A DNA stretch of 49,056 nucleotides. Origin: a virus. The notes under the pieces are model-generated. The model had not been told where the DNA came from. It saw only the letters and a list, made by a program, of their open reading frames with translations, and ran no database searches. This document shows positions 1 through 47,657 of this stretch, one piece after another; position 1 is the first letter of the stretch; every line of letters starts with the position of its first letter. The stretch spans positions 1 through 49,056 of IMG/VR virus record IMGVR_UViG_3300048444_000320. One strand, 5' to 3'. Position numbers and translations under genes: made by a program.

Positions 1-1489
1 CAACCGCTTGTGAGTCGCTGTCGGGTCCCATTTTGCAGGTGCCTACCGGATGGTAAATAAGCCCCGTTTTCGACTTTATTTCCTCGAGTAGTAGCGAGTC
101 GTTTGTCGCATTTTCAGTTGGAAACAAGCGCCCACCATTATGTTTTTTGAGCGCCGGTTGCGCCATTATTTCAAAGGCTTTTTTTATACCGTTTAACAGC
201 GCCTGTTGGTCTTCTTTGCTTCTTAAAAAGCCATAAGTGATTTGAGGCTTGTCCATTGGATTATCTGGGTTTAACTGAACCATACCGCGAGCCGTTGGAC
301 GTAGCAGACAGACGTGACAAGTGAACCCATTGGTTAGCGTGGGTAACCAGTCATAACCGCTATCGTTGAACATGACCGGTAGTAGGTGCACTTGTATATC
401 GGGCTCTTTAACCGCATTTGACGAACAATAAAAAGCACCGACTTCTGCAATTGAGTGAGCGAGCTGACCTTTTCGAGTAAACAGGTACTTTATGAAAGGC
501 ACTGAGAGCTTCAGTAAATTCCAGGGGGTCAGGGTCAGTCCATCTTTGGCTTTGTTTTTGTAGTGCAGGCTAATATCAACATGCTCTTGCAAGTTCTTGC
601 CCACACCGGGTAAGTCATGAACGACGTTAATGCCTGCATGCTTCAATTCACCCGCCGGGCCAATACCCGAGCGCAGTAGAATCTGCGGCGAATTAAAGGC
701 GCCAGCGCTTAAAATGACTTCTTTATTTGCTTTGGCAATGCAGGAACGGCCCGAGTGTTGATAACGAATGCCGGTAGCCGTTTTGTTGTAGAATACAATG
801 CGTTCAGTCAGACATCCGGTTAATACTTTGAGCTTGGAACGATGTAACGCCGGCTTAAGGTAAGCGTGGTAGGTGCTGCATCGCTTGCCGTTTTTCATAG
901 TGAACTGATAAGGGCCGTAGCCTTCTAACTGCTCCCCGCTAAAGTCAGGGCTTTCGGGTAAGCCGTATTCCCCACAGGCATTTAAAAATTGCGTGGAAAC
1001 CGAGTAATAAGGCGCGACATCTGAAACATGTAACGGACCTTCAGCTCCATGATAAGCGTTAGCGCCACGACTGTTATTTTCACTTTTGATGAAGTAGGGC
1101 AGTAAGTCGTTATAACTCCAGCCGCTGTTGCCTAAGGCGGCCCAGTGATCATAGTCGGATGCAAGGCCGCGAGTGTAGATCATGGCATTGATACCACTGC
1201 TGCCACCCAGCATTTTTCCGCGCGGCGTATAGCTGCCTTTAGACGTGGTTAAATGCGGCTCGTTTTCAGCGCGATACAGCCAGTTAAATTTGCGACTGTG
1301 CATAAAGCGGGCAAAACCCGATGGCATGTCAGAAAATAGCCCACCATGCGATGCTCCGGCCTCTAATAACAAAACGCTGTGTTTACCGCTTTCAGTGAGC
1401 CTATTGGCCAGTGTACAGCCAGCAGAGCCGGCACCGACAATAATATAGTCGAAAGACTCTTCTGTATTAGAGCGAAGCGACGTAGTCAT
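1..1489 (-). CDS. GMC-family FAD oxidoreductase (choline dehydrogenase-like), 3' end off the window
   Basis: The minus-strand frame is open from ATG at 1489 to the window edge, about 496 codons. An N-terminal FAD-binding GAGSAG motif lies at residues 19-24. It is followed by GMC signature 1 (GGSSGINAMIY, then RG..DYDHW) and signature 2 (GAFNSPQILLRSGIGP). Near the edge is the HPVGTCKMG block with the conserved active-site histidine region. The family oxidises alcohols such as choline or other primary alcohols with FAD; the substrate cannot be read from sequence. The start overlaps the end of sbcB by 23 bases, so the two are probably translationally coupled. It is a host gene outside the prophage. 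The extreme C-terminus is not visible. Confidence 0.9.
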   Translation of the reverse strand, partial: MTTSLRSNTEESFDYIIVGAGSAGCTLANRLTESGKHSVLLLEAGASHGGLFSDMPSGFARFMHSRKFNWLYRAENEPHLTTSKGSYTPRGKMLGGSSGINAMIYTRGLASDYDHWAALGNSGWSYNDLLPYFIKSENNSRGANAYHGAEGPLHVSDVAPYYSVSTQFLNACGEYGLPESPDFSGEQLEGYGPYQFTMKNGKRCSTYHAYLKPALHRSKLKVLTGCLTERIVFYNKTATGIRYQHSGRSCIAKANKEVILSAGAFNSPQILLRSGIGPAGELKHAGINVVHDLPGVGKNLQEHVDISLHYKNKAKDGLTLTPWNLLKLSVPFIKYLFTRKGQLAHSIAEVGAFYCSSNAVKEPDIQVHLLPVMFNDSGYDWLPTLTNGFTCHVCLLRPTARGMVQLNPDNPMDKPQITYGFLRSKEDQQALLNGIKKAFEIMAQPALKKHNGGRLFPTENATNDSLLLEEIKSKTGLIYHPVGTCKMGPDSDSQAV

Positions 1490-2930
1490 ACAGTGACTTT
1501 AAAAGACGCAATTTGTGGGCGTCTTCCTGATGCTGGTTAGCCAGCTCTTCCAGGCGCAGCGCAAAAGCGTCCGCAGAGAGCATACCTTCCGGAGGATCAA
1601 TAAGGCGTTGCTGACAAAATTGACGCCACTGGTTCAGCTCTTTGTCCGTTAATGTCGACGGATAGTTACGAGCACGGTATCTCAGCAGCAGCTTTTCCAT
1701 ACGCGGGTCTTCAAAGGCTAAATCTAACCCAGCTAATTGTTGCGGCTCGGACGCTCGAATAATTTCCATGTGCTTTTTGTCTTGCGGCGAGAAAAATCCG
1801 TCGTAAATTTGGTGGTCAACATCGGTCCTTGGGGCAAACTCTTTGGTTTGCTCGAACACTTGCATTAACTTGTCTCTGAACGCACTGTTTTCCTGCAGCC
1901 ACTGCGCATTGGCAGCTACGGTTTCCATATTGAGGTCAGCTCGTGCAGAAGCATCCTCAGAGATTGTTTTAATAGGCGCAAGAAATGGACTGCGGCCTAG
2001 ATGAATGTTTTGTAGACCACTTTTTTGCTGCCCTTGAGCTTCCAGCTCTTTGCGGCTGGTGTAAGTCAGTTCAACGAGTTCATCGACCGACTTATCAGCA
2101 AAGAGTTTAGGATCAATGCGTAAGTCCCAGGCTATGACGTTACTGTTTTGCTTAGGGTGAAAGCCTAGTGGCAATATGGCGGACAAATACCGGTTTACGT
2201 TGCCGTAAAAGCCGCTGACGTGTGCTAGAGGCTCAGGTGCTTGCCAGTTAAAAAGGTTAAGAAGCTTTTGCTTACGGCGAATACTATACGCCCACTGCCA
2301 TAACTTTGGCTGCTTTTCTTTAATGAGTTTAGCCAGACCAATGGTGGCGTAAACATCGGACATTGCATCGTGCGCCTGGCCGTGTTCAATGTTATTCGCC
2401 ACACTTAAGTGTTCGAGTTTCAGGCTGGGCTGACCATCATCATTATCCGGCCAGTTAATACCTTCAGGACGCAATGCGAAGCAGGCTCGGGTTACGTCAA
2501 TTAAGTCCCATCGTGAGTTGCCATTTTGCCAGCTGTATTCATAAGGGTCATAGAAGTTGCGATAGAACAGGGAGCGGGTTACTTCGTCGTCAAAACGAAT
2601 ATTGTTGTAACCAATAATGGTGGTGTTGGGCTTTTGAAACTCTTCGGCAATGGCTTTGCTGAACGCTGCCTCACTAACACCTTGCTTTAATGCGAGCTGC
2701 GGCGTTATTCCGGTAACTAAGGTTGCCTCAGGGTTCGGCAGAAAGTCAGGCGTGGGCTGAACATAAAGCGTTAATGGGCGGCCAACCACATTAAAATCAG
2801 TGTCGGTGCGAAGCCCTGCAAATTGCGCCGGACGGTCAACCAGCGGGTTAGCCCCCCAAGTCTCATAATCGTGCCAGTAAAAGGTCGGCTGATTCTCTTG
2901 TTCGTTATTGTTGTCTGAATATGGCTGCAT
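1467..2930 (-). CDS. sbcB: Exonuclease I (3'-5' ssDNA exonuclease), with N-terminus replaced by prophage insertion
   Basis: The 487-aa protein aligns by eye with E. coli ExoI (475 aa). DEDDh residues are present: D21 and E23 in HDYETW, D114 in RFDDE, H187 and D192 in HDAMSDV. It degrades ssDNA 3'-5' and acts in mismatch repair and recombination. Homology begins at FYWHDYETW, residue 17. The preceding 16 residues (MQPYSDNNNEQENQPT) lie mostly on the phage side of the attL core at 2870-2886. At the far prophage end, the same FYWH codons are preceded by a different start, MAQNELET. The current start is therefore phage-supplied. There is no good Shine-Dalgarno upstream of ATG 2930. The active site is intact, so function is probably kept, but expression may have changed. 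Confidence 0.95.
   Translation of the reverse strand: MQPYSDNNNEQENQPTFYWHDYETWGANPLVDRPAQFAGLRTDTDFNVVGRPLTLYVQPTPDFLPNPEATLVTGITPQLALKQGVSEAAFSKAIAEEFQKPNTTIIGYNNIRFDDEVTRSLFYRNFYDPYEYSWQNGNSRWDLIDVTRACFALRPEGINWPDNDDGQPSLKLEHLSVANNIEHGQAHDAMSDVYATIGLAKLIKEKQPKLWQWAYSIRRKQKLLNLFNWQAPEPLAHVSGFYGNVNRYLSAILPLGFHPKQNSNVIAWDLRIDPKLFADKSVDELVELTYTSRKELEAQGQQKSGLQNIHLGRSPFLAPIKTISEDASARADLNMETVAANAQWLQENSAFRDKLMQVFEQTKEFAPRTDVDHQIYDGFFSPQDKKHMEIIRASEPQQLAGLDLAFEDPRMEKLLLRYRARNYPSTLTDKELNQWRQFCQQRLIDPPEGMLSADAFALRLEELANQHQEDAHKLRLLKSLYDYVASL
2870..2886. repeat. attL core, 17-bp direct repeat
   Basis: CGTGCCAGTAAAAGGTC is repeated exactly at 47621-47637. Both copies lie inside codons for TFYWH of sbcB (minus strand). 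The repeats bracket an integrase-containing prophage, so this is the left attachment core. The true crossover could be a subset of the 17 bases. Confidence 0.9.
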
Positions 2931-2981
2931 GTCTTATACCGCGCGGCTTTGGTTGTGTTTATCTGTGTCGCCAGTTGTTCG

Positions 2982-3010
2982 ATTTATTCTCTTGTTTTCT
3001 TCTATTGCAA
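2982..3010 (-). promoter_or_regulatory. Candidate phage-borne promoter now reading into sbcB
   Basis: On the minus strand TTGCAA (3010-3005), a 17-base spacer and ATAAAT (2987-2982) resemble a sigma-70 promoter directed at sbcB. It lies in prophage DNA between attL and int. The match is moderate and no transcription evidence is available. Confidence 0.3.
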
Positions 3011-3020
3011 AATTCTATAT

Positions 3021-3060
3021 GCTACTAGCGTGCTATAAATTGATGCCTGCGTGCTATTTT
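3021..3060. repeat. Candidate integrase arm-type sites (left)
   Basis: GCTACTAGCGTGCTAT (3021-3036) and GCCTGCGTGCTATTTT (3045-3060) share the core GCGTGCTAT. A third copy, GCTACCAGCGTGCTAT, lies at 47541-47556 just inside the other prophage end and matches the first at 15 of 16 positions. Repeats at both ends near the cores are what integrase arm-binding sites look like. The second copy overlaps a possible GTG start of int. Confidence 0.5.
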
Positions 3061-3068
3061 GGATATTT

Positions 3069-4283
3069 ATGCTTACAGACAGACAACTCAAGAGCTGGAC
3101 CAAGAATCCTCCGGAGAAAACCCACGAGATTTCAGTCGGCAACCGCCTTTATGCCAGGGTAACGGATAAGGGCACTATTTCATTTCAGTTTCGCTATCGT
3201 ATTGGTGGCCGCAACACACGCATTACGCTTGGCTCATACCCTTTACTGGCGCTCAAATCAGCTAGAGATGAGGCTACACGATTGTCTGTGGTGCTGCAAG
3301 AAGGTGGTGATCCGAAGGTAGCTGCCCGCTCACGTTACTCAGGTGGCGAGTGGACGCTCGATAAATGTATTGATGAGTGGCTGAATAAACACGTAGCACG
3401 GAAACTGAAAGATAGCACGCGGGTGAACTATGCCAGTATCGCTGAGAAGCATCTTAAAGGGCGCTATTCCATTCCTGTCGAGCGTATAAGGATGGATGAA
3501 TGGCTAAGCCTATTTGATGGTATTGCTGAAAAGACATCTCCTTATAATGCCGGAGTGGTTCTCAAAGTTACAAAACGCGCCCTGGGCTGGTGTATGCGCC
3601 GCGAGCTTATTAATCAACCGACAGTAATGAACCTTGAAGTGAGTACGGTAGGCACAGGTAGCAGCAGGCGAGACAGAACGCTTGAACTGCATGAAATCGG
3701 TCGTATTTGGATGGCCATTGAAAACACTAAGCTATCTCTGGCGGTAAGGAATAGCATTAAGCTGTTACTTCTAACCGGTGCACGAAATTCAGAAGTGCGT
3801 GAAGCCAAGTGGAATGAGTTCGACTTTGAAAACCGAATTTGGACTCTGCCAAAAGAGAGAAGCAAATCGGGAGTCGCAATTCGCCGGGCACTCACAGATG
3901 AAATGATCCAGTTAGTTAATGCAATGAGAGCGACACCCAGTCCGACGTATGTATTCGGCTCAATGGATAATGACTTTCAAAAGCCAATAACGACTCATGC
4001 AATTCAAAGAGCTGTTCGTCGGTTGAGAGCCAAACTGAATATGGATGACTGGCGTGTTCATGACTTCCGGCGGTCGTTGGCAACACGGCTGTCAGAGCAA
4101 GGGATCCAGCCTCACATTGTTGAGAAGATATTAGGGCACAGTCTTGGCGGTGTTTTAGCAGTATACAACCGCCATGACTGGATAGATAAGCAGAACGAAG
4201 CTTACGAGACCTGGTATCAGTTAGTTAGCGCTGCAGCTGAGCATGCAGCTGGGCGCATTACTGCAGCCCAGCAAACTTCCTGA
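3069..4283 (+). CDS. int: Tyrosine-type phage integrase (P4/DUF4102 family)
   Basis: The protein is about 404 aa. The N-terminal DUF4102-like domain (SWTKNPPEKTHEISV...GSYPLLALKSARDEA) is followed by a SAM-like core-binding domain and the catalytic domain. Numbering from ATG 3069, the visible catalytic residues are R239 (LLTGARNSEVRE), H331 and R334 (VHDFRRSLA), H357 (ILGHSLGG) and Y366 (AVYNRHDW). It inserts and excises the prophage at attB in sbcB. A GTG at 3051 would add six residues; ATG 3069 was chosen because MLTDRQL resembles typical integrase starts, but neither start has a clear Shine-Dalgarno. It converges with the AlpA-like gene, overlapping it by 26 bases, so the two can interfere. 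Confidence 0.95.
   Translation: MLTDRQLKSWTKNPPEKTHEISVGNRLYARVTDKGTISFQFRYRIGGRNTRITLGSYPLLALKSARDEATRLSVVLQEGGDPKVAARSRYSGGEWTLDKCIDEWLNKHVARKLKDSTRVNYASIAEKHLKGRYSIPVERIRMDEWLSLFDGIAEKTSPYNAGVVLKVTKRALGWCMRRELINQPTVMNLEVSTVGTGSSRRDRTLELHEIGRIWMAIENTKLSLAVRNSIKLLLLTGARNSEVREAKWNEFDFENRIWTLPKERSKSGVAIRRALTDEMIQLVNAMRATPSPTYVFGSMDNDFQKPITTHAIQRAVRRLRAKLNMDDWRVHDFRRSLATRLSEQGIQPHIVEKILGHSLGGVLAVYNRHDWIDKQNEAYETWYQLVSAAAEHAAGRITAAQQTS
4248..4272. terminator. Hairpin at convergent int/xis ends
   Basis: GCTGGGC (4248-4254) pairs with GCCCAGC (4266-4272) around an 11-base loop. It sits where the int and xis reading frames converge. There is no convincing U-tract on either strand, so termination is only a suggestion. 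Confidence 0.3.
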
Positions 4284-8970: not shown

Positions 8971-9260
8971 GCTGCACCTCCAACAGTAAATGCCGCAGTT
9001 GCCGGCATCAGTTGCTGCATGGTCCGGATGATTGATTTCATACGCTCGATGGCAAGTGGGTCGCCAAACTCGACACTGCGAACAAGCAGAACCGCATCGT
9101 CTTCTTCAATCTTGATGCGGAATGCGTATTCATCGATGAGAATTTGGCCACAGAACTGGCGGGTGCGAAGCAGGGCAGCGTGATGGTTGCTTGCCTGTTC
9201 AATCAGGTCGTTCAATGTACTCTGACGGACGTCAGGTAATTGTTGAGCGGTATTAGCCAT
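8967..9260 (-). CDS. First gene of the leftward early operon, function unknown
   Basis: The 97-aa soluble protein starts at ATG 9260 with TGGAG nine bases upstream. A TTG at 9275 would add five residues but would place the ribosome site inside the gene. It has predicted helices (LNDLIEQASNHHAALLRTR), a beta-rich centre (ILIDEYAFRIKIEEDDAVLLV) and a helical end. The stop overlaps the recT start (ATGA), so it is coupled to the recombination genes and may modulate them. I do not recognise the family. Confidence 0.7.
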   Translation of the reverse strand: MANTAQQLPDVRQSTLNDLIEQASNHHAALLRTRQFCGQILIDEYAFRIKIEEDDAVLLVRSVEFGDPLAIERMKSIIRTMQQLMPATAAFTVGGAA

Positions 9261-9275
9261 GTTGCTATACTCCAA

Positions 9276-9523
9276 TCGTTGTTATGTCGGCTTTAACCGA
9301 CGTGATGATGTTGTTTGGTTGGCAATCTCCAACGTCTCGTTGGTGACATTTGCCTCCCTAGGCTTTTCCGGGTTGCCGCCCGGTTCAGCCGAAATACAAT
9401 GTTGCTTAACCCAGTTTTCTGGGTCGCCCCGTTAGGTTGCCGCCTGCGGGGCTTTCTTATTTCAGGACCATAGAAAGATTCGCTTTTGTGTTCTCAATGC
9501 GTCTTTCTGTGTCGCTTTTAGTC
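9276..9523 (-). promoter_or_regulatory. Structured early-operon leader with three hairpins
   Basis: Between the early promoter and the first gene lie three inverted repeats. They are CCGGG/CCCGG (9368-9372/9379-9383), ACCCAG/CTGGGT with a TTTT loop (9409-9414/9419-9424) and GCCCCG/CGGGGC (9426-9431/9447-9452). The first and third share the loop-side sequence GGTTGCCGCC. On the plus strand the third is followed by TTTCTTATTT and could terminate plus-strand transcripts. In the leftward transcript they would form a folded leader, as in antitermination or attenuation control. No gene is present in this stretch. Confidence 0.45.
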
Positions 9524-9725: not shown

Positions 9726-10037
9726 ATGCGATTATTGGGGATTACTTTATTGGCGATACTGCTAACGGGCTGTGACTTTTTTTATAAGTCAGAAATTGAG
9801 TCGTGCCACGATCGAGTTCACGGAAAAGCTAAATACCAGGCCGAAATTATTTCGACCGAAGTCCGAGATAAGGGCTATACGTATGGCGAGTTCGATAGTA
9901 ATAAAATAATTATTGAAGGACAGGCAAAACTGCAGAATGGTTATGGAGCCTGGAGCAATTACAGCTACTATTGCTCCGTACTTGAGTCAGGAATGATCTC
10001 CAAATTTAGGTTTGAAGAAGGTTACAAAGCATTTTAA
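9726..10037 (+). CDS. Small predicted lipoprotein
   Basis: The 103-aa protein starts at ATG 9726, with GAGGGAG seven bases upstream. An upstream in-frame start at 9672 has no ribosome site. The N-terminus MRLLGITLLAILLTGCDFF has a lipoprotein signal with lipobox LTGC, so the mature protein is anchored to a membrane. The remainder is polar with two further cysteines (ESCHDRV, YYCSV) that could pair in the periplasm. It is the first of three same-strand envelope genes in the immunity region, AT-rich compared with phage core genes. It is probably a lysogenic-conversion gene; function is unknown. Confidence 0.7.
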   Translation: MRLLGITLLAILLTGCDFFYKSEIESCHDRVHGKAKYQAEIISTEVRDKGYTYGEFDSNKIIIEGQAKLQNGYGAWSNYSYYCSVLESGMISKFRFEEGYKAF

Positions 10038-38032: not shown

Positions 38033-38430
38033 AACGAGTCAATGACTGGCCAACTCAGCTGGCTAACTTCCTATTAGAGAAACGCAAACAACCCTTCGAA
38101 TGGGGAAGCAATGACTGTTGCCTGTTTGCTGCGGATGCAATTATCGCTATGGGTGGTAAGGATGTCGCGGAGGACGTTCGCGGTCGGTATAAAACGGCTA
38201 TTGGTGCGCGTCGTATTATGAAAAACCTCGGCGCAGCTAATGTGGTGGAATTGCTTACTCAGCGGCTGGGCAAGCCTGACGACAAGATCACACGTGGTGC
38301 CATTGTTGTGGTTGAGTCCGATGGTGAACAGGTGGCGGGGGTGTTTTATCAAAAGCCCTGGGCATTAACGGAAAAAGGCTTGCAGGGAATGCCAATCAAG
38401 TCAGTTATTCAATCTTGGGGGCTTAGCTAA
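38029..38430 (+). CDS. Tail assembly NlpC/P60-like protein (DUF6950-like)
   Basis: The 133-aa protein contains FEWGSNDCCLFAADAIIAMG near the N-terminus, the Cys-containing helix of NlpC/P60-like phage tail proteins. A gly/val-rich region with GAIVVVESDGEQVAGVF follows. A catalytic His is less clear, so it may be a structural relative of lambda gpK rather than an active peptidase. It overlaps both neighbours by 1-4 bases. Confidence 0.7.
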   Translation: MKRVNDWPTQLANFLLEKRKQPFEWGSNDCCLFAADAIIAMGGKDVAEDVRGRYKTAIGARRIMKNLGAANVVELLTQRLGKPDDKITRGAIVVVESDGEQVAGVFYQKPWALTEKGLQGMPIKSVIQSWGLS

Positions 38431-41400
38431 TGCCTCCAGCTATTGCTGCAGTTGCTGTAGGGATCGCAGCGGGAGTTGCGGCTAGTTCGGTGGTAGTCGG
38501 CATTGCGGTTGCCATAGGAACGGTTGCACTTCAAAACTCATTAAAACCCGATATGCCTGGGGTGAGCGAGTCTGCTAGAGAAGCGCAAACTCTGACAACA
38601 GAGCCGTTACAACCTCGCCGTGGAATATATGGCGAATCCGTTATATCCGGCTCTATTATTGGCTATGGCAAGCGGCGAATGGGCGATAAAGAAGCGCATG
38701 TTGTCGCCGTCACTCTAGCCGGTCACAACATTGAAGCCGCTGAACTTTATGAAATTAACGGTAAGAATAAGCCCACCGGGACAACAGTTGAAATTTTCCA
38801 CGGCGACCAAAGCACTGCGAGCTCAACACTTTTACAGTATGCCGATGGGTGGACAGAGGATCATATCGGCTTTGGTGTTGCTTATGCTGTCGTTACTATT
38901 CCAATTGATCCGGATGAGATGCCTTCCGGGTTACAGAACATCACGTTCAAGGTCAAAGGTAAGCGGGTTTATGACCCACGTAAGGATACTACTGTTGGCG
39001 GTGATGGCCCTCACAGGCCTAATGATGAAACCACATGGGAATGGTCTGATAACTCCATTCTTTGCGCACTGGATTATCAACGTTTTCACGGGTACAAACC
39101 TCTCGGCCTGAATAAGTTCGACCTTGCTCATGTGATGGAGCAGGCCAATATTTGCGATGAAGCTGTCAGTTACACGGATTCTGAGGGCGAGCAACAAAGT
39201 GAGAAGCGATACACTTGCAACGGCTCATGGACATTTGACCAGGCTCCTTCCCGTGTACTCGAGCGGATAATGAGTTCATGCGGAGGGAAACCCTACCGCC
39301 GCGGTGGAAAGATGTATTTGCAAACCGCCAGTTATCACGGCATGGCTGAAATAACCCTAACGGATACTGATGCCGCGGGTGAAATTACGATAACCCCGCA
39401 CCGCGAGTTGAAAGATAGAACGAATACAGTCCGGGCTTCATTTCAGGATCCTAAACGTGGCTATCAACCTACCGACGCGCCGGTGGTGACGAACAACGTG
39501 TATGTCGATCGTGACGGTATGGAGCTGGAAGATGATCTTCAGCTGAACTTTACTAACTCATCAACTATGGCGCAGCGTTTGATGAAGTATCACCTGGAGC
39601 GTAACCGCGCAGGGATGAGACTGGAGTTCCCGTGTAAGTCAAAGGGGTTGTTGGCGTTGGCAGGCACTACGGTTCGCGTTGATTTGCCGAATGAGGGAAT
39701 AGATAAAGAGTTCATCGTTTCGGACTGGCAGTTTGATTTTAAAACGAAGAAGACGAAGCTGGTTCTTGAAGAAGAGTCTCCGAACCTTTATAGCGACAGC
39801 TTAGTTCCATCGGAAGGCAACGTAACACCGAATACCGAATTGCCCGACTTAACGCGTCCGGAGCCGCCTGAGTCGCTGGATTTTGTGATTGATTCTGTAT
39901 CAACACATCGTCAGGGGTACGTGACCTGGTCTCATCCGATACCTCGAGCTGTGACTGAATACCGCGTTCTGGTGCGAAAAGACGGCGATGAAATCATTGA
40001 ATACCCTGTAATTGCTAGCAGCAGCGTGCAGTTAAAGCAGGACATTAATGGGCTGGACGCGGGTCAATACAGTATCGAGATATATGCTCGCAACCGTTAT
40101 GACCGAACGTCATTACCCGCTACGATTTCTTTAACACTTACTGAGCCATCACCACCAACAAGCCTGGGCGTTACTGCCGGCAACTGGGAAATAACCCTTG
40201 CGCCGACGCTCGCCGGTATCGGGTTGGGCACGATGTTCGAATTTGCTTATGGCACGACTGACAACATCATCGGTCGTGGAGCCAACATTGTTATTCCCGG
40301 GCTGACACCGGACACAGAGCATGAAGTGTTTGCGCGCACAGTGAATGTGCTGGGTAACTCTGACTGGCTTTCTGCCACCGTCCAGACGACAAAAGATACA
40401 TCGCAGGTCGACCCTATTATTGACCAGTACACTAGCCGCTTAAGCACCGTTGAAACCGACTTCCAGCGCTTCGTCGAAGAGGACTACGCCGACTTGCAGC
40501 AGCTGGTTAACGCCAACGCACAGGAAATGCAGGTTCGCTTTGGGTCGGAGCTGTTTGCCCGGGAAGAGTCAGACGCCGCTATTCTGTCGGGCATTCTGCA
40601 ATCCGCTGCGTCCCGCGATGAAATGCGCCGTCGCGTTGATTACTCGATGGAGCTGATTGGTGCCGCCGTTGACATCAATTACGAAACCGGCGAAATCACT
40701 AACCGGGCGTTTAGCTACACCGATGAGCGATTTGTTCAGGCGCAGTTGAGCATTGATGGCGTAGCTGGTGAAGTGGAGGCGGCAGTCGAGCGCATCAGTT
40801 ACGCAGAAGACCAGGTCGAAACGCTCAACGCTGAGCTGTTATTGCTGCCAGGCGTGATTGAGCAAAAAGCAACCGCCATTGTGGCCGACTCTATATCCGC
40901 CCTTGAGCCGGCACACGCATTTAACTTCTTTGACAGCGCCCAGGGATGGAGTGCTGTCACCGGAACCGTCACGCCTGGCGTGAATAAAATCCTGCTAACG
41001 ACGGGTGACATAGAGAACCAAGCGCTTAGCTACAACGGCTCGGAATTTCCGGTAATCAGAATGAAGGTGCGGCGGACGGCTGGCGACGGCTGGCTGGGCA
41101 ATATCACGGCAACATTCACGGATGACACGACACAGACTTACCAGGGCATTATTGAGCCGATAGCCTCAACAGGCTCTGATGTTATTCGCATTGTCGACTT
41201 CACAGCACTGGAGAGCTACCACGGCAACATCAAAGGCCTACGGATAACGCTTGGCCAAACAACCGCTGATGAGTTCGAGTTAACCTCTCTGAACATCGGC
41301 AAATCAGACGCCGCACTCCAGGATTTAACCAATATCCAGGCACAGGTCACTGAAGCCAGTTCACAAATATCCGCGCTCGAAGGTCAGATTCAAGACCGCG

Positions 41401-43922
41401 TAACGGTCACTACATACGAAGAAAATGCTGTCACCCGCTCGAACGTTGAAAGCGTATTAAACGGCCTCGATAGCTATGCTAGCATCACAGCCACTTACCA
41501 GGACATTCAAAACAACGGCATCGTTGAGAAAGCCAATGACGCGGCGCTGTTTCTCGATGGCGCAGAGGGTACGTTTACATCCTTTGTTAGCAGCCTGAAC
41601 GAGCAGCTAAGCGAGCGCGAAGGGTTAGTCGACCAGAAGTTCACCAGCGTTGAAGAAACGCTCGACGCGCAGGCCGGCACCATCACCAGCCAGGCATTCG
41701 GCATATCAACCAACCGCGAAGCCGCGGAAGACGCAACGATTGAAGAGCTGAGAAACACGCTGGATTACGGACTGTATCGTCTCGGCGAGCTCGACAAAAA
41801 TGCGCGCTTTGCCATGGCGTTAGACCAGCTCCAAATCGACGTGTCAGACGAAGGCTCGCTGGCGAAAAGCATCGAGCAACTGAACAGCTTCACGCAGCAG
41901 GCCGGCGAGCAAATCGAAGCACAGGCAACGCGCTTATCGCAAGCTGAAACAGACATTAACGGCTACGCCCGGGCGCTTCAGATATTGTCCTCACGCGTCG
42001 GCTCGTCTGAAAACTTTGCTCAAGCGCAGCTGTACCTAAACAGCCAATACAACGAACAGCTTCAGCAGTACGAGGCCCGCGCCTATGTTGGTGTTGAGCA
42101 GGTGCAGGATGGCCGCGCTGTCATTACCGGCATCACCATCGGCGGCGTAACCAACGCCATCAGCGTCCAGGGTGATGTTTATGAGTTCGCAGACACGGAC
42201 GGCAACCCTCAGCTGTACTACGACACTGACGACAAGACCTGGTCGTTTGCCGGCAACATGGTTATCGGTGGCACCCGTGTCAGCACACCGGAAGATTATC
42301 AGCGCATCACAGACAACAACCTAATCCGCCCATCGGCCTACTGGACACCAGGGACATCAGGCTCGCAAGGCCCGTTCAGCAAAAATGGCTCGGACGATGA
42401 AAACGCGGTTGAATATCAAACCGGCCCGCTGGGCGCGGTCGAGGCTATCTGGACGACCGCCAACGGCAACGATAGTGGCGACGGCGGCTGGAATATCGAT
42501 GTGAATATCGATCCCGATAAGACCTACCGCAATACCGTTTGGATGAAACAGACCGGCGGTAACAGTCAGCGCTTGTACCTGGGCTGCTCACAGTCAAACA
42601 CAAAGAATCTGGACGGCACCAGTAACGGCAACCCATATCACTGGAGCGGCAACCTACCGCAGTTGGATAAATGGTACCTGGTTATAGGCATCATTCACCC
42701 GCAAAGTTACACAGGTAACGGCTCTGACTTGTCCGGCATTTACGACCCGGAAACCGGCGAAAAAGTCACGAGCATCACGGAGTTTAAAAACGCCGGCAGC
42801 GACACCCAGCGTCAGCGGGTTTATCGTTACTACGTAACCAACCCGAATCACAAAGCTCAGTTCGCCCGCCCGCGTTTTGAAGAGGTCAACGGAAACGAGC
42901 CAACGCTAGGCGCACTGATTGGCCGCATCCCGCAGGACGGCCCGCAGGGACCGGAAGGCCCACAAGGACCGCAAGGGCCGCAGGGACCAGCCGGCAACGA
43001 TGGGGCAACAGGGCCAGGATTCTTCGGCGGCCGCTATGACACAATCAACTGGAGCCAGGGATGGTCGCGCTTCACGGCGCTAACAGGCCGCAACCCGATT
43101 CCGGGCGATATCTTTGTACAGACACTCACTGACGGCTCGGACTCGTCTGCGCGCCAACGAAATGCTTCTAACAGTGGCTGGGACCAGGCTGCCCTGTTAA
43201 TCAACGGAAGCATGGTTGCAACCGGAACGATTGCCGGCGACCGACTGATAGCTGGCACTGAGTTAAACTCGCCAATTATTAAGTCAGGCAGGCTAGAGCT
43301 GGTCGGCAGCAGTTACATGAGCATCCAAACGGCCACCCCTTTTGGGCCAAACAATTTATTGGAGTGGAAAGGGCCGCGCAACAGCTACACGTACGATGAA
43401 GCGAATAAACTCGTGAAATTTGACGGACTCACAAAAGCAAACGCACTTCAGTACTTCAGTGACGCCGGTGACTCCTACTTTGGCGGCTCAATCACTGCCG
43501 GCACATTAAGAAACGCAGTGCAATCAACCCAACTCGGGAACACCGATGTAACAGTCGGCCCGTTCGGCTCTAACGGCGGTTTAATAGAAATTAAATGCTC
43601 AGTAAGCGCATCCAGAAGCTCTGGTTTAGTAGCGGGCAACTGCCCATACCCGGCACCGGCAAATCCATCCGGCACCCTGCGACTCTACAGAGAAACGGCT
43701 GGCGGCGAAATTCTTGTGGCCACTCAAAACGTAAATGGCTCTTACAACTGTTTAGATGAAGGGCCTGAGCATATCGAGAACTGGCAACTTAGCGGTTCAT
43801 TCACCTACACAGACAATCTACAAACGGCCTCGAATCGAACCTATCGGCTTGAGGTTACGCACAACTTACCGATTTACCCCAACGGTTCACAGAGCTTATC
43901 GCTCATTACGGAGGAAGCATGA
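38430..43922 (+). CDS. Tail tip attachment protein, J-like, with collagen-like stretch
   Basis: The 1830-aa protein has a hydrophobic N-terminus (residues 1-36) and the conserved J core (GYGKRRMGDKEAHVVAVTLA, WEWSDNSILCALDYQ, ERIMSSCGGKPYRRGGKMYL). Fibronectin-III-like domains (~480-660) and coiled coils (~670-1240, LSTVETDFQRFVEEDYADL) follow. There is a carbohydrate-binding-like domain near 880-960 and nine Gly-X-Y triplets at about 1504-1530. A C-terminal beta domain ends the protein. It forms the central fibre and likely carries the DGR-diversified adhesin encoded next (ATGA overlap). Confidence 0.9.
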   Translation: MPPAIAAVAVGIAAGVAASSVVVGIAVAIGTVALQNSLKPDMPGVSESAREAQTLTTEPLQPRRGIYGESVISGSIIGYGKRRMGDKEAHVVAVTLAGHNIEAAELYEINGKNKPTGTTVEIFHGDQSTASSTLLQYADGWTEDHIGFGVAYAVVTIPIDPDEMPSGLQNITFKVKGKRVYDPRKDTTVGGDGPHRPNDETTWEWSDNSILCALDYQRFHGYKPLGLNKFDLAHVMEQANICDEAVSYTDSEGEQQSEKRYTCNGSWTFDQAPSRVLERIMSSCGGKPYRRGGKMYLQTASYHGMAEITLTDTDAAGEITITPHRELKDRTNTVRASFQDPKRGYQPTDAPVVTNNVYVDRDGMELEDDLQLNFTNSSTMAQRLMKYHLERNRAGMRLEFPCKSKGLLALAGTTVRVDLPNEGIDKEFIVSDWQFDFKTKKTKLVLEEESPNLYSDSLVPSEGNVTPNTELPDLTRPEPPESLDFVIDSVSTHRQGYVTWSHPIPRAVTEYRVLVRKDGDEIIEYPVIASSSVQLKQDINGLDAGQYSIEIYARNRYDRTSLPATISLTLTEPSPPTSLGVTAGNWEITLAPTLAGIGLGTMFEFAYGTTDNIIGRGANIVIPGLTPDTEHEVFARTVNVLGNSDWLSATVQTTKDTSQVDPIIDQYTSRLSTVETDFQRFVEEDYADLQQLVNANAQEMQVRFGSELFAREESDAAILSGILQSAASRDEMRRRVDYSMELIGAAVDINYETGEITNRAFSYTDERFVQAQLSIDGVAGEVEAAVERISYAEDQVETLNAELLLLPGVIEQKATAIVADSISALEPAHAFNFFDSAQGWSAVTGTVTPGVNKILLTTGDIENQALSYNGSEFPVIRMKVRRTAGDGWLGNITATFTDDTTQTYQGIIEPIASTGSDVIRIVDFTALESYHGNIKGLRITLGQTTADEFELTSLNIGKSDAALQDLTNIQAQVTEASSQISALEGQIQDRVTVTTYEENAVTRSNVESVLNGLDSYASITATYQDIQNNGIVEKANDAALFLDGAEGTFTSFVSSLNEQLSEREGLVDQKFTSVEETLDAQAGTITSQAFGISTNREAAEDATIEELRNTLDYGLYRLGELDKNARFAMALDQLQIDVSDEGSLAKSIEQLNSFTQQAGEQIEAQATRLSQAETDINGYARALQILSSRVGSSENFAQAQLYLNSQYNEQLQQYEARAYVGVEQVQDGRAVITGITIGGVTNAISVQGDVYEFADTDGNPQLYYDTDDKTWSFAGNMVIGGTRVSTPEDYQRITDNNLIRPSAYWTPGTSGSQGPFSKNGSDDENAVEYQTGPLGAVEAIWTTANGNDSGDGGWNIDVNIDPDKTYRNTVWMKQTGGNSQRLYLGCSQSNTKNLDGTSNGNPYHWSGNLPQLDKWYLVIGIIHPQSYTGNGSDLSGIYDPETGEKVTSITEFKNAGSDTQRQRVYRYYVTNPNHKAQFARPRFEEVNGNEPTLGALIGRIPQDGPQGPEGPQGPQGPQGPAGNDGATGPGFFGGRYDTINWSQGWSRFTALTGRNPIPGDIFVQTLTDGSDSSARQRNASNSGWDQAALLINGSMVATGTIAGDRLIAGTELNSPIIKSGRLELVGSSYMSIQTATPFGPNNLLEWKGPRNSYTYDEANKLVKFDGLTKANALQYFSDAGDSYFGGSITAGTLRNAVQSTQLGNTDVTVGPFGSNGGLIEIKCSVSASRSSGLVAGNCPYPAPANPSGTLRLYRETAGGEILVATQNVNGSYNCLDEGPEHIENWQLSGSFTYTDNLQTASNRTYRLEVTHNLPIYPNGSQSLSLITEEA

Positions 43923-45454
43923 GTATCCTATGGAGAGCAAGCAGCGTTACCGTCACGAACGGTAGCGCACTAATCACCGTCCAGACCGGCGACGACATCG
44001 CAGGCCTGAAGCCCGGCTCATCACTGTATATTGAAGGGCAGCTACTCGAAGTTAAGCGCACCTTTACAACAGACACGGGTGTTAACACTATCGAAACCAT
44101 CGAGAGCTGGGATGCTGGCTCAGGCAGCGGAAAAGTTGCAAAAGGCGTTTTGCACCCCGGCGCAATTCTTGCACTGAGTGAGCAGGCAAAGCAGCTGATT
44201 GAAGCATCAGAAGCGCTGTTCGGTAGCCAGTCAGTGAACCCGACAGCTGATTCAATTGCAAAACGCGACGACGGAGGCCGTGTAAAAACAAACACACCAA
44301 GCGCCAACAACGACGCGGTTAACAAAGGCTATTTAAAAGGGGCAGCAACGCGCGACGTTGGCACATCAGGCAGCGAACTGCCGGATACCACTGAGCTCAA
44401 TAAGCGCCTGGGCACTACCGGCAATGTCATCAAGTCAATATCAATTCCGGGCGGCTTATCTTTCATCCCTGACACTTTGCGCAAGCAAGTTGAGTTATCA
44501 ACCCAGGGCAAGAACACGGTCCTTTACAACGCAAACGGCGACCCCAGCATTATGGTGCCCATCTACAAGTTCCGCTATGAGGATTTAGGTTTTGCGGGCG
44601 ACCCGTTCGGCACCGGTGTAGCGACCGCATTTATGGTCAACGGAGTGGAAAAATCCGAGGTTTTCATTGGCGCATTCCAGGCGCACTATCACAACGGCCA
44701 GGTCGTATCATTACCCGGACTTAACCCGCGCACATCGGTTAACTTTGACACGGCGAAATCATGGTGCCAGGCGAACGGCCAGGGCTGGCATTTAATGTCA
44801 GAGCACGAGTGGGCAGCGATAGCGCTCTGGTGCATGGCCAACGGATTTGAACCTCGCGGCAATACAAACTACGGGCGCGCGCATGACGCGACCCACGAAT
44901 TCGGCCGCCGACAAGACGGTGGCATTGCAGGTGACGCATCAGGCACAGCCAGAATACTTACTGGCTCGGGACCCGAAGCATGGCGGCACGACAACTCACC
45001 TTTCGGCATTGCTGACCTGACAGGCAATATATGGGAATGGAGCGACCAGCTTAAACTGGTTGACGGCCGCGTCTATTGCACCACCGACAATAACTTTGAG
45101 GAGGATGAAATTAACTGGGTACCGCAGGGGCATTACCTGTCCAACGAGAGCGGGAACCTAACCCTGAAGAACAGCCCGGGCGTATCGAATGAGGACGGAC
45201 TCAGCACCGATTGGGGCGCACTTTCAAAAGAAGCCGGCTACACCGAATCACAGCTACTGCAACGCCTGCTATTCTCACCTGCCGGCATCATCCCGCAAGG
45301 CCGTCTATACGCCCGAACGGGAGGCGAACGGCTCCCGTTTCGTGGCGGCTACTGGACCGTTGGCTCCGATGCCGGCCTCGCCGCTCGCCACTTGGTCTAC
45401 GTGCGTTCGTTCACGCACAGCGGTGTCGGGTTTCGCCCCGCTTTTGTCGCATGA
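43919..45454 (+). CDS. DGR-diversified tail adhesin (C-type-lectin/FGE-fold variable protein)
   Basis: The 511-aa protein's N-terminal part is fibre-like (VKTNTPSANNDAVNKGYLKG is a tail-fibre motif). From about residue 215 it has the formylglycine-generating-enzyme-type C-lectin fold used by DGR targets: GWHLMSEHEWAAIALWCMA, NSPFGIADLTGNIWEWSD and a terminal GVGFRPAF. Residues 470-508 are encoded by the variable repeat (45327-45442). Compared with the template, 13 residues differ, including every template Asn. It should bind the host receptor at the tail tip; its binding surface can be re-diversified. Confidence 0.93.
   Translation: MSILWRASSVTVTNGSALITVQTGDDIAGLKPGSSLYIEGQLLEVKRTFTTDTGVNTIETIESWDAGSGSGKVAKGVLHPGAILALSEQAKQLIEASEALFGSQSVNPTADSIAKRDDGGRVKTNTPSANNDAVNKGYLKGAATRDVGTSGSELPDTTELNKRLGTTGNVIKSISIPGGLSFIPDTLRKQVELSTQGKNTVLYNANGDPSIMVPIYKFRYEDLGFAGDPFGTGVATAFMVNGVEKSEVFIGAFQAHYHNGQVVSLPGLNPRTSVNFDTAKSWCQANGQGWHLMSEHEWAAIALWCMANGFEPRGNTNYGRAHDATHEFGRRQDGGIAGDASGTARILTGSGPEAWRHDNSPFGIADLTGNIWEWSDQLKLVDGRVYCTTDNNFEEDEINWVPQGHYLSNESGNLTLKNSPGVSNEDGLSTDWGALSKEAGYTESQLLQRLLFSPAGIIPQGRLYARTGGERLPFRGGYWTVGSDAGLAARHLVYVRSFTHSGVGFRPAFVA
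45327..45442 (+). repeat. DGR variable repeat (VR)
   Basis: This 116-nt segment matches the template repeat 45871-45986 except at 17 positions, all of which are A in the template (8 to T, 6 to G, 3 to C). The last 20 bases, ending CGGGTTTCGCCCCGCT, are free of mismatches from 45427 and lie where the initiation-of-mutagenic-homing (IMH) segment is expected. VR ends 12 bases before the stop codon of the adhesin gene. Confidence 0.97.
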
Positions 45455-45478
45455 GTTCTTGCTCTTGGTTTCCTGTTA

Positions 45479-45496
45479 GCTGCGCGATAGCGCAGC
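45479..45496. promoter_or_regulatory. DGR target hairpin/cruciform with GATA tetraloop
   Basis: GCTGCGC (45479-45485) and GCGCAGC (45490-45496) form a perfect 7-bp stem with loop GATA. It lies 36 bases after VR, just past the adhesin stop, and has no counterpart after the template repeat. In Bordetella phage BPP-1 a short stem with a GRNA-type 4-base loop downstream of VR is needed for efficient target recognition; GATA fits GRNA. Confidence 0.8.
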
Positions 45497-45518
45497 ATTA
45501 CTTTTAAGTGGTTTTAAA

Positions 45519-45863
45519 ATGCACGTACAACAAGATTTAATCGTCATTCAACGCATCGAAGAGATGATAAAATACGGGTATAAAGCGCTCGCTCACTTTC
45601 CGAAATCGGAGCGGCATGTGTTGAGCGCTGAAATCCGCCAGAGCATGTTTCGACTACTGCGACTGATGATTGTTGTATCAAAGCGCTACCACAAGAAAAC
45701 AACACTACAGGACGCTGACGCAGAGCTTGAATTAACCCGCCGATTAGTACGACTAGCCAAAGATCTCGGGCATCTTCCCTTCAAGAAATACGAGGTCTGG
45801 AGTCGTCATTTGGCAGAGATTGGCCGCTTTATCGGAAGCTGGCTTAAGAAGGAAAAGGGCTAA
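45519..45863 (+). CDS. avd: DGR accessory variability protein
   Basis: The 114-aa all-helical basic protein (MIKYGYKALAHFPKSERHVL, EIRQSMFRLLRLMIVVSKRY, LELTRRLVRLAKDLG) has the four-helix-bundle layout of Avd, the S23-like pentameric partner of DGR reverse transcriptases (BPP-1 Avd is 128 aa). It binds the RT and template RNA and is required for cDNA synthesis. Gene order adhesin - avd - TR - RT is as in BPP-1. Its stop is 7 bases before the template repeat. Confidence 0.92.
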   Translation: MHVQQDLIVIQRIEEMIKYGYKALAHFPKSERHVLSAEIRQSMFRLLRLMIVVSKRYHKKTTLQDADAELELTRRLVRLAKDLGHLPFKKYEVWSRHLAEIGRFIGSWLKKEKG

Positions 45864-45870
45864 GTGCTAC

Positions 45871-45986
45871 AACGGCTCCCGTATCGTGGCGGCAACTGGA
45901 ACAATGGCTCCAATGCCGGCCTCGCCGCTCGCAACTTGAACAACGAGCGTTCGAACACGAACAGCAATATCGGGTTTCGCCCCGCT
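45871..45986 (+). repeat. DGR template repeat (TR)
   Basis: The 116-nt invariant template contains 27 adenines; 17 of them differ in VR and no other base does. In the VR frame it has ten AAC/AAT codons, the codons that give the widest amino-acid range after adenine randomisation, plus single TAT, GAG and ATC sites. It is transcribed with avd and the RT, copied with errors at A, and the cDNA replaces VR. Confidence 0.97.
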
Positions 45987-46151
45987 CTTAATGATTGCCC
46001 GAAGCAGCGCGGCCACGGCTTCGCTGACAGCGCATCTATTAAAAGGGCGCTTAGTCCTCACCCAACCGGTGAAACATATACAGGCAGCCGTAGGCTAGTA
46101 GGCGCACCGAGCGCTTTCGGCTGCCGCCCTAAGCAGTCAAAAGGATTTGAA
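45987..46151 (+). ncRNA. DGR spacer RNA between TR and RT
   Basis: The 165-base stretch has no supported gene and is rich in inverted repeats. The strongest is GGCAGCCG (46083-46090) pairing with CGGCTGCC (46118-46125). Another is GAAGC...GCTTC just after TR. In BPP-1 the region 3' of TR folds, binds RT-Avd and primes cDNA synthesis; this stretch is in the same place and of similar size. The 3' part carries AAGGA, the RT ribosome site. Confidence 0.7.
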
Positions 46152-47180
46152 GTGAAGACGCACAAGAACCTTTATCCGAGCATTTATGCGCTTGAAAACT
46201 TACATAACGCATACTTAAAAGCGCGCCTCGGAAAACGCGAACGAACAGAAGTACTGCGCTTTGAGCGAGACCTGGAAGGCAACCTAATCCGCCTTCAGGA
46301 GCACCTGATAAACGAGACCTACAGCACCGGCCAATACCGAAAATTCTATGTACACGAACCCAAGCACCGACTGGTGGCCGCATTACCGTTCCGCGACCGC
46401 GTAACTCAACACGCGCTTATTAGTGTGATAGAGCCGATTTGGGAGCGCCGCTTCATTCATCACAGCTACGCTTGCCGCCCTGGCAGAGGAATGCACAAAG
46501 GCAGCACCCAGGCGCAACAATGGCTGCGCGAAGTCCAGCGCCAGCATGGCACCGCATACTGCCTTAAAGCCGATGTCAGCAAGTATTTCGCATCAATTAA
46601 CCAAGAGGTTTTAACCAGCATATTAAGCCGCAAAATAGCCTGCCAGCGAACACTGAACCTATGCAAAAACATCATGGGTTCATGGCCGGAAGGGCTACCC
46701 ATTGGCAACCTCACCAGCCAGTTGTGGGCTAATGTTTATTTACACGAACTGGACGCCATGGTTAAGCACAAATTACGCATCCATCGGTATATTCGCTACA
46801 TGGATGACTTTGTCATTATTCACCACGATAAAAGCTATTTAAAAGCCGTTTTAAATACCATTACTGAGTTTTTAAATAATGTTTTAAAACTGCGCTTAAA
46901 TAATAAAACGCAGATATTCCCGGTCAGCCAAAATAACGGTCGAGCACTCGACTTCCTCGGCTATAGAACATGGCCAACGCATAAGCGAATACGCAAAGAT
47001 TCGGTCAAGCGAATGAATAAAAAGATGAAGAAGATGGCACGCCTTTACGCCGCCGGAGACATCGACCACGACTATATAAAGAGACGCATTGTAAGCTGGA
47101 TAGGCCACGCACAATACGCCGACTCATACCGCATCAGAAACAAAGTCTTAGGCTCTGTTACTTTCAAACGAGAGGGTTAA
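46152..47180 (+). CDS. DGR reverse transcriptase
   Basis: The 342-aa protein starts at GTG 46152 with AAGGA six bases upstream. The same frame is open back to 45864 through TR, but that part is repeat/spacer, not RT. RT motifs seen: RKFYVHEPKHRLVAALPFRD, ADVSKYFASI (first catalytic Asp), LPIGNLTSQLWAN (the IGNxxSQ form typical of DGR RTs instead of QG) and YMDD at residues 216-219. FLGYRT and a basic C-terminus follow. It copies the TR RNA with adenine-specific errors. Confidence 0.96.
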   Translation: MKTHKNLYPSIYALENLHNAYLKARLGKRERTEVLRFERDLEGNLIRLQEHLINETYSTGQYRKFYVHEPKHRLVAALPFRDRVTQHALISVIEPIWERRFIHHSYACRPGRGMHKGSTQAQQWLREVQRQHGTAYCLKADVSKYFASINQEVLTSILSRKIACQRTLNLCKNIMGSWPEGLPIGNLTSQLWANVYLHELDAMVKHKLRIHRYIRYMDDFVIIHHDKSYLKAVLNTITEFLNNVLKLRLNNKTQIFPVSQNNGRALDFLGYRTWPTHKRIRKDSVKRMNKKMKKMARLYAAGDIDHDYIKRRIVSWIGHAQYADSYRIRNKVLGSVTFKREG

Positions 47181-47183
47181 ACC

Positions 47184-47525
47184 ATGTATACTTATATATT
47201 TAAAGGGCAGACACACACCGACTTTAGCATCAGCTATATGCAGCAAATCGGCATGGACGCAGAGCAAATAGAGTCCGTTAATAACCAGCGTAACCACGAT
47301 TTAAAAGCCGTTAAAGAGAAGGTCCGCCAGGAGTGTTCACGACGCATTGCACTGCACTGGAACGAGGTAGGGCAAATCAACGCTGCGCTGGGTGTGTATA
47401 CACCGGAAGAGACAGAATCATGCAGGCAGTGCATTGAAGCTCACAGGAGCGCCTGCAACACCCTACTAAGCAACCCTGACCTGCTAGACGTTAACTACAA
47501 AAAGGATGAGTATTGGCCGTCATAG
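47184..47525 (+). CDS. Small phage protein after the DGR, possible tail-fibre assembly factor
   Basis: The 113-aa protein has an N-terminal YTYIFKGQTHTDFSISYMQQ strand/helix region and a helical middle with several Cys (ESCRQCIEAHRSACNTLL). It ends DVNYKKDEYWPS, recalling the I.WP ends of tail fibre assembly (Tfa-like) proteins. It is the last rightward gene and its stop lies in the terminator stem. Family membership is uncertain. Confidence 0.55.
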   Translation: MYTYIFKGQTHTDFSISYMQQIGMDAEQIESVNNQRNHDLKAVKEKVRQECSRRIALHWNEVGQINAALGVYTPEETESCRQCIEAHRSACNTLLSNPDLLDVNYKKDEYWPS

Positions 47526-47609: not shown

Positions 47610-47657
47610 TCACTCATTACCGTGCCAGTAAAAGGTCTCTAGTTCGTTTTGTGCCAT
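47610..47657 (-). pseudogene. Stranded native 5' end of sbcB
   Basis: On the minus strand ATG 47657 opens MAQNELETFYWHGNE and then stops. The codons for TFYWH are the attR core, and the same codons in sbcB at 2870-2886 continue into the exonuclease. Before integration the gene would have read MAQNELET-FYWHDYETW. The prophage therefore separated eight native codons, and presumably the native promoter to their right, from the rest of the gene. Confidence 0.88.
47621..47637. repeat. attR core, 17-bp direct repeat
   Basis: This is an exact copy of the attL core at 2870-2886. Chromosomal DNA resumes to the right. The distance between cores is 44,751 bases. Confidence 0.9.

Follow-up and report, generated by a model that had tools for sequence, protein, structure and literature searches.

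The diversity-generating retroelement (DGR) of Bordetella phage BPP-1, laid out as mtd-avd-TR-brt, is the described system closest to the one reported here. Its spacer between the template repeat (TR) and the reverse transcriptase (RT) gene brings in RT-Avd and contains the adenine from which the cDNA is primed (PMC12875486). Variable repeats (VRs) of phages are followed by GC-rich stems of 7-10 bp with GRNA loops (Guo et al. 2011, PMC3240598), the DiGReF survey had already reported DGRs in which TR and the annotated RT ORF overlap (PMC3521204), and more than 30,000 DGRs have been catalogued (Roux et al. 2021, PMC8144416).

The stretch of DNA analysed here (the window, 49,056 nt) is a provirus record whose host is an Idiomarina-like marine gammaproteobacterium. 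It almost certainly carries a complete BPP-1-type DGR that would rewrite, from its TR, the VR of a tail-tip-associated C-type-lectin gene (Table 1). The case is drawn from one genome copy and combines RT, Avd, TR and VR, hairpin, target fold and template-RNA structure. VR lies at the 3' end of a CLec-fold gene, its invariant 3' end is followed by a hairpin, an Avd accessory protein is encoded, structured RNA lies between TR and RT, and the RT is of the DGR kind with an intact catalytic motif. A sequence-only reading of the same DNA had proposed a complete element in the order adhesin (the target), VR, hairpin, avd, TR and RT, and the coordinates agree with it.

Table 1. Positions of the DGR components and of neighbouring genes in the window
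Feature	Positions	Strand	Remarks
Exonuclease I, host-like	1467-2930		left side
Integrase	3051-4283
Lambda-J-like tail tip protein	38430-43922	+	1830 aa; PF13550, PF24489
DGR target gene	43919-45454	+	511 aa; C-type-lectin (FGE-type) protein, VR at C-terminus
Variable repeat (VR)	45327-45442	+	116 nt; all 17/17 differences from TR at TR adenines
Presumed IMH	45426-45442	+	invariant VR 3' end, same as TR 45970-45986; repeats diverge beyond
Hairpin/cruciform	45479-45496	.	7-bp GC-rich stem, GATA loop (GRNA consensus), 36 nt past VR
avd	45519-45863	+	114 aa; PF22296 bAvd 8.5e-34
Template repeat (TR)	45871-45986	+	116 nt; 97-99% kept in close relatives vs VR 81-85%
Structured RNA in TR-RT spacer	45985-46125	+	Rfam RF02921 (RT-14)
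Reverse transcriptase (RT)	46152-47180	+	342 aa; probable GTG start, AAGGA 6-7 nt upstream
Small ORF	47184-47525	+	113 aa; directly past RT

Adenine signature and its record in related phages

TR and VR align without gaps at an offset of 544, and every one of their 17 mismatches falls at a TR adenine, a base that occupies 27 of the 116 TR positions (hypergeometric P = 8e-14). The repeat length, the 17 differences and the 27 adenines given in the sequence-only reading are thus correct to the base, and the P value agrees with its dismissal of chance as an explanation of the bias. In VR the adenine is replaced by T at eight positions, by G at six and by C at three. All 10 adenines of VR lie where the two repeats agree, which shows that change runs from TR to VR. 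Exactly 13 codons are altered, all non-synonymously, which bears out the 13 changed residues counted by the first reading in the C-terminus of the target protein. The TR codon is AAC or AAT in 10 of these 13; substitution of the adenines of such codons cannot create a stop. No additional VR copy was found within the window.

By analogy with the IMH of BPP-1, the invariant 3' end of VR is presumed to act as the IMH. As for the hairpin beyond it, 57 of 129 loci have, at most 70 nt from the VR end, a 4-nt loop closed by a perfectly paired stem of 7 bp or more, and the loop is GRNA in 54 of the 57. Among 645 shuffled controls, 3 have a qualifying stem and none has a GRNA loop. The letters of the stem vary among loci while the pairing is preserved.

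A comparison of VRs among related phages had been proposed with the original reading, which took differences at non-adenine positions across strains as evidence against itself. Four close relatives were available (L003, L004 and L005 from IMG/VR, and L083 from Idiomarina sp. ATCH4; RT identity 93-97%). Their TRs are 97-99% identical to that of the window and their VRs 81-85%, each relative having its own distinct set of VR changes at A positions; the TR-RT spacer is 87-100% conserved among them. When the window is pooled with 13 distinct related loci, a TR adenine is the site of 176 of the 184 TR/VR differences; the other 8 include 3 at the first (boundary) position.

The close relatives also bear on homing itself. 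Private substitutions of TR at positions other than A are present in the VR of the same phage, namely at column 35 in L005, column 50 in L004 and column 66 in L003. Because private TR changes recur in the phage's own VR, homing appears to have taken place after these phages split; this is indirect evidence that TR was copied into VR after the lineages separated, which independent mutation would hardly be able to do. Broader locus pairs give 654 concordant cases against 1, in TR/VR pairs whose selection score counted non-A mismatches against them and in locus pairs that are not independent, so the argument for copying rests on the close group. The same kind of score was used to pick the TR/VR pairs that accompany 133 of 165 related RT loci. 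At the DNA level the cassette occurs in 1 of 19 other genomes of the genus Idiomarina.

Two related loci each have one TR that pairs with two VRs kilobases apart: 9730-9850 with 9168-9288 and 18475-18599 in L032, and 9732-9851 with 9221-9339 and 16254-16373 in L036. For this reason these two phages seem to diversify two targets.

Judged from its sequence, the DGR of the window is probably functional as well as complete. It could instead have been active recently and be silent in this prophage now, sequence-intact but unexpressed or functionally dead. Loss of the machinery does happen in related phages, Vibrio phage pYD38-B (see below) being an example, but here every ORF is intact, the RT retains YMDD, TR and spacer are conserved among close relatives to the extent given above, and the VR of the window is unlike that of any relative; we regard silence as rather unlikely. 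Far less credible is that an ordinary gene duplication produced TR and VR, which then diverged by point mutation and selection without retrohoming. Selection can push the residues of a receptor-binding site to change, but the differences fall exclusively at adenines of one copy only, this pattern is repeated in the 13 distinct related loci, private TR changes recur in their own VR, and an RT of the DGR kind and Avd adjoin the repeats.

Reverse transcriptase, Avd and template RNA

The RT protein matches PF00078 (1.9e-19) and phrog_1423, and its closest solved relative is the bRT of BPP-1 (PDB 8ub7_A, E 1.9e-70). It carries the catalytic motif YMDD and also IGNLTSQ, which we take to be the form familiar from DGR RTs, and it is presumably an active enzyme. 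That it belongs to a group II intron, a retron or a defence system beside an unrelated repeat is hardly conceivable: the top NCBIfam model for the RT is a group II maturase, but its 149 bits are far below the 300-bit cut-off of that model, the Rfam scan gave no intron RNA, so that neither intron RNA nor a maturase-type RT over the cut-off was found, nor did any retron RNA structure turn up around the RT, the nearest solved relative is bRT, and Avd adjoins the RT. Avd itself scores 114.9 bits with the NCBI equivalog model NF033474 DivGenRetAVD (cut-off 80), and its structural homologues are the BPP-1 Avd structures PDB 8ub7_B and 4dwl.

The open frame of the RT extends back to 45864, through TR, and would then encode 438 aa. 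We consider this an over-long reading and the start to be probably the GTG at 46152, outside TR, since homology to bRT begins there, behind AAGGA, since the 66-69% relatives have stops in this frame about 50 nt upstream of RT, and since the frame of TR relative to that of RT varies among 112 loci (52, 31 and 29 in the three frames). Translation of TR as part of RT was rejected as a general feature, the frame being interrupted upstream of RT in the 66-69% relatives. The window and the four relatives nearest to it have an open frame through TR, as does, separately, the Vibrio VP58.5-like group. All members of that group (L052-L056, L068, L163) have TR in the RT frame with no intervening stop, about 220 nt before RT, and may encode a genuine TR-RT fusion protein.

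The spacer between TR and RT covers the whole RT-14 model (positions 1-144) with 55.7 bits (gathering threshold 48.1). RT-14 matches over threshold were obtained in 10 of 26 other related DGR loci scanned, each between the end of TR and the start of RT. A consensus structure of the spacers of 20 aligned relatives has 27 pairs, 20 of them with changes on both sides, and 92.7% of cells are paired. The covariation score is 0.629, as against 0.236 +/- 0.018 in shuffled alignments and 0.09-0.20 (maximum 0.197) with partners slid; the structure was derived from the same 20 sequences, which favours it, and the covariation counts are far above the controls. Folding of the single sequence gives z = -1.3, which is weak taken alone. 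A scan of 398 genomes of the phylum for RT-14 gave no match, the control genomes and genome G001 being equally silent.

Since the BPP-1 spacer acts in this way (PMC12875486), the spacer RNA is presumed, by analogy, to form the 3' domain of the template RNA here, bringing in RT-Avd and priming the cDNA. We think it likely that the RT-14 family as such is the structured 3' domain of phage DGR template RNAs, the counterpart of the BPP-1 segment to which RT-Avd binds and from which cDNA synthesis is primed. A literature search pairing RT-14 with DGRs found nothing.

As proposed for this locus, an RNA covering the end of avd, TR and the structured spacer would be turned into cDNA by the RT-Avd complex, with errors of synthesis arising opposite TR adenines. 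The cDNA would then replace VR at the 3' end of the target gene, the shared 3' end (IMH) and the hairpin directing it to the site, so that as many as about 13 residues in the presumed receptor-binding site could be altered while TR would remain unchanged.

Target gene, partner ORF and prophage

The target protein matches PF03781 (E 7e-07). Its C-terminal 330 residues match phrog_2889 (3.5e-116) and the crystal structure of TaqVP (PDB 5vf4, E 1.2e-64), the latter in two stretches of which the second spans VR. The AlphaFold model (mean pLDDT 75; residues 79-184 uncertain) resembles TaqVP 5vf4 with E 1e-33 and gives a weak match to Bordetella Mtd (1yu0). Homology and predicted fold thus both point to the lectin fold that had been expected at the C-terminus. 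The tail tip gene lies directly upstream of the target gene and overlaps it by 4 nt. This position and the fold suggest that the target is a receptor-binding protein, and position together with homology makes the retargeting of receptors by VR change, also part of the first reading, plausible.

In DGR phages of the contractile and P2-like kinds, homologues of the small ORF likewise stand downstream of RT. In Vibrio phages 1.137.O and 1.119.O (L168, L169; 1634-3282) a homologue starts at the end of a gene of the same CLec target family, with no avd, TR or RT between the two; no RT match was found in the records of these phages, in a search run without a positive control. The small ORF was rejected as a DGR component because it adjoins the same target gene in phages lacking an RT match. 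It is a probable partner of the target protein, possibly chaperone-like. As target and small ORF adjoin directly in 1.137.O and 1.119.O, avd-TR-RT appears to be a unit that can be removed from between target and partner gene. In pYD38-B (L170, JF974313), positions 2767-3110 join the first ~28 aa of Avd to the last ~30 aa of RT; the target gene and a GATA hairpin are intact, the small ORF follows the Avd-RT junction, and a search without a positive control found no RT elsewhere in the record. This phage shows a natural DGR deletion scar with a frozen VR.

As to the prophage, the integrase is followed by genes for SSB, YqaJ, RecT, CI-like and CII-like regulators, replication, endolysin and terminase, then by those for Mu-type portal and F proteins and a siphophage tail, with an asparaginase gene at the right. 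The description of the phage as a siphophage with a Mu-like head is well founded: the head proteins match Portal_Mu (1e-107) and Phage_Mu_F (2.5e-22), tail tube, tape measure, distal tail and lambda-J-like tip proteins are present, and no sheath or baseplate match occurred among the proteins scanned. The likely attachment (att) core is CGTGCCAGTAAAAGGTC, 17 bp repeated identically in direct orientation at 2870-2886 and 47621-47637; this core gave no match in the other related loci examined. The left copy lies within the 5' end of the host exonuclease I gene. Given the integrase gene and the likely att repeat, the phage is most likely temperate and integrates by its integrase, not by transposition, although its head is Mu-like. 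A plasmid search gave no match. In the early region, an ORF at 10762-11379 matches the type VI secretion-associated family VasI/EvfG (6e-09).

Comparison with known systems

DGRs are a known and well-described kind of element, and their general picture is unchanged by this locus. The points added are modest: the probable identity of RT-14, which would link a database RNA family to DGR template RNA; TR-to-VR copying among close phages, which form a natural record of repeated VR rewriting; and the pYD38-B scar, according to which phages can lose the DGR machinery and retain one frozen receptor-binding variant. Idiomarina, a marine host lineage that can be cultivated, also gains a well-defined DGR with this locus.

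With the BPP-1 DGR the locus shares gene order, homologous RT and Avd, adenine-specific TR/VR differences, a hairpin with a GRNA loop, a structured TR-RT spacer and a CLec target at the tail tip. It differs in that the RT is only ~40% identical, the target is of the TaqVP type and weakly similar to Mtd, the hairpin stands 36 nt from VR, and the host is a marine gammaproteobacterium. The DGRs of Vibrio phages VP58.5 and VHML and of Pseudoalteromonas phage ACA1 have the same target family, avd, TR, RT and downstream small ORF, whereas those phages are contractile-tailed or P2-like and their TR-RT spacer measures ~102 nt compared with 165 here. TaqVP, the DGR variable protein of Thermus aquaticus, is homologous to the target and likewise has its VR at the C-terminus, while the target has an additional N-terminal part of ~180 aa, presumably for tail attachment. 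Finally, the TR-RT spacer fits the entire 144-position model of Rfam RF02921, entered there as an sRNA gene, whereas we conclude that it is likely the 3' domain of a DGR template RNA.
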